A DNA stretch of 64,000 nt from the NCBI GenBank assembly GCA_030431475.1, contig JAUIJD010000027.1:1-64000 (forward strand), written 5' to 3'. This DNA is from Verrucomicrobiia bacterium (lineage in GTDB: Bacteria; Verrucomicrobiota; Verrucomicrobiia; Verrucomicrobiales; Akkermansiaceae). Position 1 is the stretch's first letter. Each line of letters begins with the position of its first letter. The position numbers and the translations under genes are program-made. The notes beneath the pieces were generated by a model. That model saw nothing but the letters and a program-made list of their open reading frames with translations. It searched no databases and was not told where the DNA came from. Positions 45,167 through 56,339 of the stretch are shown one piece after another.

Positions 45167-45191
45167 GCCGTTCCTTTCCTCAAAAGCAAAC

Positions 45192-45245
45192 AAAAAGAGA
45201 ACAATAAAAGGATAGGCGAACATTTTCGGGTCTTGTTCTCTTTTT
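45192..45245. promoter_or_regulatory. candidate operator: 13-bp perfect inverted repeat between MerR and sigma genes
   Basis: AAAAAGAGAACAA (45192-45204) and TTGTTCTCTTTTT (45233-45245) form a perfect 13-bp inverted repeat with a 28-bp spacer. It lies in the 173-bp gap between the divergent MerR start (45166) and sigma start (45340). The region is markedly more AT-rich than its surroundings. The arms also resemble one another as paired operator half-sites for a dimeric regulator. A secondary 6-bp palindrome is at 45281-45300. Confidence 0.65.
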
Positions 45246-45339
45246 GGTTGCAAATTATCGCCCCTCTGTTCTTCTCCTGTTCGTAGAGCGAATGCTACGA
45301 TGTTCGCAAATTGATCAGCAATCTCTCCTACCTACGACC

Positions 45340-51839: not shown

Positions 51840-51870
51840 GCCGGAACCCCACGGTTCTTCCCAAAACAAA

Positions 51871-51901
51871 AGGCCGCCCGGTGAACGGGCGGCCTTTTTT
51901 C
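51871..51901 (+). terminator. rho-independent terminator of azurin
   Basis: Stem AGGCCGCCCG / CGGGCGGCCT (10 bp) with loop GTGAA, followed by TTTTTT. This is a classical intrinsic terminator on the plus strand. The A-run before the stem means it could also serve the minus strand. Confidence 0.92.
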
Positions 51902-51931
51902 GTCTGCCGGGCGAAGGGTCCCCCGGCGGAC
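51902..51931. other. second hairpin after the azurin terminator
   Basis: GTCTGCCGGG (51902-51911) pairs with CCCGGCGGAC (51922-51931), 10 bp with one G-T pair and a 10-nt loop. It may back up the terminator or belong to the structured element that follows. Confidence 0.55.
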
Positions 51932-51969
51932 GGATCACGGACCAGCGCCGGGGACTTGTGGGAAAGGGT

Positions 51970-52087
51970 GTGGATCACCACGACCGGAGAGGGGAAAAAC
52001 CCATGAAACCTCTCTCCGGCCGTGGATCACCGTGACGGGTCGGAAGACAAACCCAGAAAGTCTCCGACCCGCCACGGAACCATCCAC
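51970..52087. ncRNA. candidate structured RNA: tandem homologous hairpins inside an outer stem
   Basis: Two long hairpins stand side by side. Hairpin 1 (51978-52025) has 17 stem pairs with one A/C mismatch and the loop AAAAACCCATGAAA. Hairpin 2 (52030-52077) has about 17 pairs and the loop AAACCCAGAAA. Both are preceded by GGATCACC, both have the A/C mismatch at the sixth pair, and their loops share AAACCCA(T)GAAA although the stems differ in sequence. This is a covariation-like pattern. GTGGAT (51970-51975) and ATCCAC (52082-52087) can close an outer stem. On the minus strand the shared mismatch becomes a G-U pair, so the strand is uncertain. No known RNA family was recognised. Confidence 0.55.
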
Positions 52088-52208
52088 GACAGAAATTCAG
52101 CAGCCGGGGTGCCAACTTTCGCCGTGCACGAGTTTTTTGGGTGACAAATCCCGCGCCCTCCCGAGCGAGGACTTGGAATCGACCCCGGTGCGGGCCAGCA
52201 TGCCGGCC

Positions 52209-55931: not shown

Positions 55932-56339
<408 letters not shown>

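Follow-up and report, generated by a model that had tools for sequence, protein, structure and literature searches.

A pair of neighbouring hairpins on the minus strand of a 64,000-nucleotide stretch of Verrucomicrobiia bacterium DNA (the window, i.e. the whole stretch analysed) is, as judged by sequence comparison, the putative core of an apparently undescribed small RNA family with an unusual twin-loop layout. The pair is almost certainly part of a structured RNA encoded on the minus strand. This RNA is probably a sigma-54-dependent trans-acting small RNA of ~220 nt, running from ~52087 to ~51865. The core of the model is grounded by comparison, through a sigma-54-type promoter, covarying twin-loop hairpins and, for the majority of A-type homologs, a terminator. 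The family is real and apparently new, within a known kind of RNA, that of the sigma-54 small RNAs such as NrsZ and Pxr.

The paired long hairpins were located by folding and inverted repeats at positions 51978-52025 and 52030-52077, where an earlier note on this DNA had described tandem hairpins of a single design with differing stems and shared loops. On the plus strand the loops read AAACCCATGAAA and AAACCCAGAAA. The two modules are identical at 38 of 59 alignment columns and, by reading, their stems differ through changes on both sides that retain pairing. This agrees with the compensatory change that the note had proposed, and the stems also covary across homologs. Compared with shuffled sequences, the fold of 51930-52130 had z-scores of -4.08 (plus strand) and -3.59 (minus strand), none of 200 shuffles equalling it on either strand. 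The repeated sequence reported ahead of each hairpin is the 8-mer GGATCACC, present at 51972 and 52024. Since the window holds 12 copies of it against 3.6 expected, its presence before the hairpins says little alone. The A/C mismatches of the note (A51983/C52020 and A52035/C52072) are correct as read on the plus strand, but the minus strand, and hence the RNA, has a G-U pair at these places. An intrinsic-terminator test found no T run after either hairpin at 51978-52077, on both strands. Elsewhere in the window, an AT-rich inverted repeat at 45186-45251 (19-nt arms, 95% complementary, 28 nt between them) is unexplained.

Copies of the element were searched with a covariance model of both modules (R1) and with a full-length model in the RNA sense (R2). 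In the source genome, the tandem pair was the sole strong R1 match, with two weak sites besides. The site on contig 107 (L004, E 0.087) proved to be a single-loop relative, and the site on contig 45 (L005, E 3.6), a start-codon region, was dropped. At E 0.01, R1 matched 17 of 144 related genomes, and R2 matched 28 of 386 genomes in the order. With either model the element was found in 17 of the 18 genus genomes, mostly as the tandem pair, and paralogs elsewhere were common. Such a covariance-model search of relatives had been suggested by the note. The genus genome without a match, G005, is an assembly that is 61% complete. One of the two loops is lost in G001, and a third hairpin stands beside the pair in G016. 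Outside the genus, R2 gave 12 weak matches. Three of them (G039, G048 and G042) retain promoter and loop by reading; four g13 genomes (G285, G253, G294 and G041) resemble the element in their 5' part but have no TGGGTTT loop, G294 being the only one with TGGC-N9-GC upstream; the remaining five are indistinguishable from chance. The exact promoter-plus-loop pattern was present in 10 genomes and 4 of 197 genera (387 genomes of the phylum), and its matches in G558 and G108 look like chance. The element was seen only within one bacterial family, the search beyond the order being by exact pattern alone. The nearest named record is Verrucomicrobiaceae bacterium E54, whose locus has an SH3 relative too. 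The whole window gave no match to Rfam 15 at the gathering threshold, nor did seven loci, and none of the 36 matches of a further Rfam 15 scan reached its own gathering score.

In the relatives compared, the element occupies a few sites with shared neighbours, and these neighbours differ between groups of loci. Group W adjoins an SH3 and an ankyrin gene in G000, G002, G014 and G016, and an SH3 gene in G017. Of four group A loci examined, three (L117, L118 and L124) place the element downstream of a conserved ORF, which Pfam identifies as a HAD hydrolase at L117, the one locus tested. In three loci, group B has a conserved ORF on each side, and its copies are followed after ~210-470 nt by a gene on the same strand; at L119, the one locus tested, Pfam assigns the two flanking ORFs to an Na/H exchanger-type protein and to a GNAT/carbon-nitrogen hydrolase. 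Six group C loci have the element ahead of a large conserved ORF, on the same strand in the three that were placed (L106, L109 and L115). The group C paralogs L088, L089, L106-L109, L115 and L116 retain the hairpins before very large conserved ORFs, and a look for the canonical promoter in them found none. Group T, in the source genome, is a single-loop RNA with a long stem that runs into a T run, and T-like RNAs also occur in G017, G002 and G003. A second sigma-54-type RNA of the source genome, with one UUUCAUGGGUUUUU loop in a long stem with a T run at its end, was observed at ~3275-3400 of L114 (contig 107, ~114775-114890).

Sixteen sequences of groups W and A were aligned with MAFFT (alignment A3). 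The structure was obtained with RNAalifold on the same alignment, and the covariation score is somewhat favoured because this structure was derived from the alignment tested. Paired cells amounted to 91.4% against 79.4% in shuffles. Both-sided change was seen in 18 of 30 pairs, against 11.9 in shuffles and at most 8 in slid structures, and in 63 cells, against at most 17 in slid structures. The number of further pair types was unexceptional (38 against 35.9 in shuffles, 118 of 500 shuffles being as high). The minus-strand structure contains 44 G-U cells versus 6 A-C cells, and the consensus energy is -46.0 for the minus-strand alignment versus -28.8 for the plus-strand alignment. This G-U bias and the more stable minus consensus designate the minus strand as the RNA strand. 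At column pair 18-57, which is the A/C mismatch of hairpin 52030-52077, the 16 sequences have G-U nine times, A-U four times and G-C once, and are unpaired twice. The loops vary little and remain near UUUC(A/U)UGGGUUU across homologs; TGGGTTT in the first loop and GGATGG at the 5' end are invariant in 16 of 16 homologs. The suggestion of a new structured RNA was right, and a small RNA on either strand was one of the possibilities listed. The strand that the earlier note described is opposite to that of the RNA, and the sigma-54 promoter had been missed.

All parts of the RNA are encoded on the minus strand. Transcription from sigma-54 promoters starts ~12 nt after the -12 GC and, because of this geometry, the start is placed at the first base of P1 (52087-52088), 12 nt past the GC. 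The 5' strand of P1, GUGGAU (52082-52087), assigned from the alignment and pairing probabilities, overlaps GGAUGG, the motif that does not vary at the 5' end. Folding and covariation define the first hairpin of the RNA, P2 (52030-52077, loop UUUCUGGGUUU), and the second, P3 (51978-52025, loop UUUCAUGGGUUUUU). The 3' strand of P1, AUCCAC (51970-51975), closes a three-way junction according to folding and pairing probabilities, and a second AUCCAC in the sequence (52022-52027) is an alternative partner. The junction enclosed by GTGGAT and ATCCAC had been anticipated in the note. It is plausible and is predicted in 14 of 16 W/A homologs, with a mean probability of at least 0.55 for pairing between the 5' end and the region past ~nt 105; the probabilities, which are raw values without shuffled control, are low in two of the 16 W/A homologs (0.13 and 0.18) and at most 0.11 in six of six B homologs. 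The RNA probably ends at an intrinsic terminator at about 51863-51898, which it shares with the azurin gene in a back-to-back arrangement and which consists of a hairpin of -26.2 kcal/mol followed by TTTTGTTTT. Strong terminators were found in nine of 11 A-type loci and in two of five W-type loci (W0, which is the window, and W16); none was found in three of five W, two of 11 A and six of six B loci. W17 and W14 have only weak terminator folds, overlapping P3, and B4 has a weak one, while the fold search gave nothing in loci W2, A3 and A15 and in five B loci. In the window, the RNA is divergent from the SH3 gene and convergent with the 3' end of the azurin gene.

The promoter at 52099-52115 (minus strand, TTGGCACCCCGGCTGCT, with GG at -24 and GC at -12) is very probably of the sigma-54 type, as suggested by the conservation of TTGGC-N9-GC and by a matrix trained on PII promoters. 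The motif TTGGC-N9-GC was spotted by eye on the very loci later counted. All 23 of these loci (23 of 23) carry it on the RNA strand, ahead of the loops. These comprise one locus per R1-search site, leaving out matches without a retrieved locus, the second modules of pairs and L005. A T follows the motif in all 22 promoter sites displayed. Within 60 nt of the loop, a spacer of 9 gave 22 matches versus 5, 1 and 1 for spacers of 6, 7 and 13, and in a window-wide count spacer 9 was not in excess. The distance from the GC to the start of the first TGGGTTT is 42-47 nt in 21 twin-hairpin loci, and 54 and 56 nt in the single-loop L004 and L021. Later loci were less uniform, with TGGC-N9-GC in four of 14, and the canonical promoter was found neither in six group C loci nor in locus D. 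The matrix, trained on 18 genomes, scored the RNA promoter at 13.4, rank 2 of 127,966 window positions; rank 1 was the PII promoter at 55949, itself in the training set. Scores were 11.4-17.2 for W sites, 9-19 for B, T and g16 sites and 4.3-11.3 for A sites, the A-type promoters having AGCT at the -12 box. The sigma-54 gene (rpoN) was detected in five of five genomes tested. By eye, no conserved enhancer site was evident within 150 nt upstream.

The window also contains a PII nitrogen regulatory protein gene (55992-56339, plus strand; PF00543, E 1.2e-35), preceded by a near-perfect sigma-54 promoter (55949-55965, plus strand) whose architecture recurs in 18 of 18 genomes. A TTGGC-N9-GC-type motif is located 42-46 nt ahead of the PII start codon in all 18 genus genomes. 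In the source genome, the strict sigma-54 consensus has a single match, before the ammonium transporter gene (L188 1388-2813, source contig 50), and in G010 a single match inside an apparent coding region. Sigma-54 also serves regulons other than nitrogen, and the link between the RNA and nitrogen is the shared promoter type only. The promoter sequence makes membership of the nitrogen regulon slightly favoured. Sigma-54 RNA polymerase and an enhancer-binding protein would then make the RNA under nitrogen limitation, and it would be co-expressed with PII and the ammonium transporter. The three-way junction would expose two single-stranded copies of UUUC(A/U)UGGGUUU, which could be seeds pairing with mRNAs, the simplest outcome being repression of translation near the start.

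Whether the loops act by such seed pairing and not by protein binding is, in our estimate, evenly balanced. A doubtful but sizeable alternative, drawn from analogy, is that the same sigma-54 RNA is a CsrB-like protein-binding decoy acting through its twin loops and 5' GGAUGG. CsrB-type RNAs bind an RNA-binding protein, and the CsrB/RsmZ sponges have repeated hairpins with one loop motif, as here. Two near-identical loops carried on stems that change yet pair, together with the invariance of the first-loop TGGGTTT and of the 5' GGATGG in 16 of 16 homologs, would suit a decoy. So would the complements of the A/B loops, which among the matches listed are rarely matched perfectly outside the RNAs: by eye, 34 of 40 among the matches listed for AAACCCAAGAAA in ten A/B genomes fall within the RNAs. 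However, the CsrA motif is GGA and the twin loops lack it.

The hairpins as a cis-acting, riboswitch-like leader of a neighbouring gene are very improbable. The leader of the SH3 and ankyrin-transpeptidase genes proposed in the earlier note is contradicted in the window because the RNA is transcribed away from both, into the azurin 3' end, with its own predicted promoter lying between. Strong terminators moreover close the A-type copies at nine of 11 loci, and neighbours vary between groups. B and C copies could nevertheless be leaders of the same-strand downstream gene, since at three loci the former precede, by ~210-470 nt, a GNAT/carbon-nitrogen hydrolase gene of the same strand (Pfam on one) and the latter upstream of the large gene, on the same strand in L106, L109 and L115. 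A REP/MITE-like palindromic mobile repeat, also raised by the note, or a long terminator is the least credible reading. The palindromic shape, the intergenic gaps and the paralogs at several places in larger genomes recall a mobile repeat, but the source genome has a single tandem pair plus a weak relative with one loop, the G-U bias favours one strand and the promoter stands at a near-constant distance. A long terminator is opposed by azurin having its own at 51868-51898. The core sites of integron attC are RYYYAAC/GTTRRRY; an attC-like site was dropped by eye, these cores being absent from view.

Candidate targets of the loops were sought with the loop sequence. With at most one mismatch, AAACCCATGAAA had 24 matches in the source genome versus 1 in a control. 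By reading, frames of more than 100 aa begin at the ATG of 16 of these 24 matches, many with signal-like N-termini. In a control with any A/C hexamer followed by ATGAAA, 33 of 37 matches in the source genome have CC directly before ATG, and AAACCC precedes ATGAAA in four of 37, two of those within the RNAs. By this control, the complement of the W loop resembles generic start-codon context. CC before ATG (33 of 37 sites) may be the usual context of start codons in this genus. Start-codon targeting is also weakened because the A/B loops read CUU, when AUG would need CAU. Recurrent gene types at such starts include a pilin-like family (four genes, three genomes), an 82%-identical pair and further pairs, one read as AraC-like and two others; they prove nothing because the genomes are related. 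A 14-nt loop match at a DctP gene start (L036) is a candidate target only. Start-codon contexts are unlikely targets of the twin loops. Still less likely, the loops might be antisense to the generic start-codon context AACCCAUGAAA and lower translation broadly under nitrogen shortage; the affected mRNA class would then include many for secreted-looking proteins.

NrsZ is built of repeated modules, and we know of no twin loops in a three-way junction in it. The Rfam scans gave no sequence relation to NrsZ, which is informative only if Rfam includes it. NrsZ of Pseudomonas is an intergenic, nitrogen-regulated small RNA of ~226 nt, transcribed with RpoN and NtrB/C (PMC8395346). The RNA of the window is similar in its predicted sigma-54 promoter, predicted size, intergenic position and possible nitrogen link, but it adjoins azurin and SH3 whereas NrsZ lies beside ntrC. 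Pxr of Myxococcus has an apparent upstream sigma-54 promoter and two or three stem-loops, with tandem paralogs in Cystobacter (PMC5568312). The promoter type, stem-loops and tandem copies are shared; Pxr differs in belonging to another phylum and in being linked to nla19 and development, and a single intergenic region houses its paralogs whereas those of the twin-loop RNA are at several places. Literature titles, with subscription papers thinly covered, revealed no such RNA described in Verrucomicrobiota. A 2022 review has a table with eight small RNAs for the PVC group (PMC9029176). Few small RNAs are catalogued in the PVC superphylum, and the present family would be well delimited, with a predicted inducer. 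Nitrogen control by RNA becomes directly testable in Verrucomicrobiota, and the paralogs, with their variable stems and near-fixed loops, show clearly how selection acts on structure together with loop.
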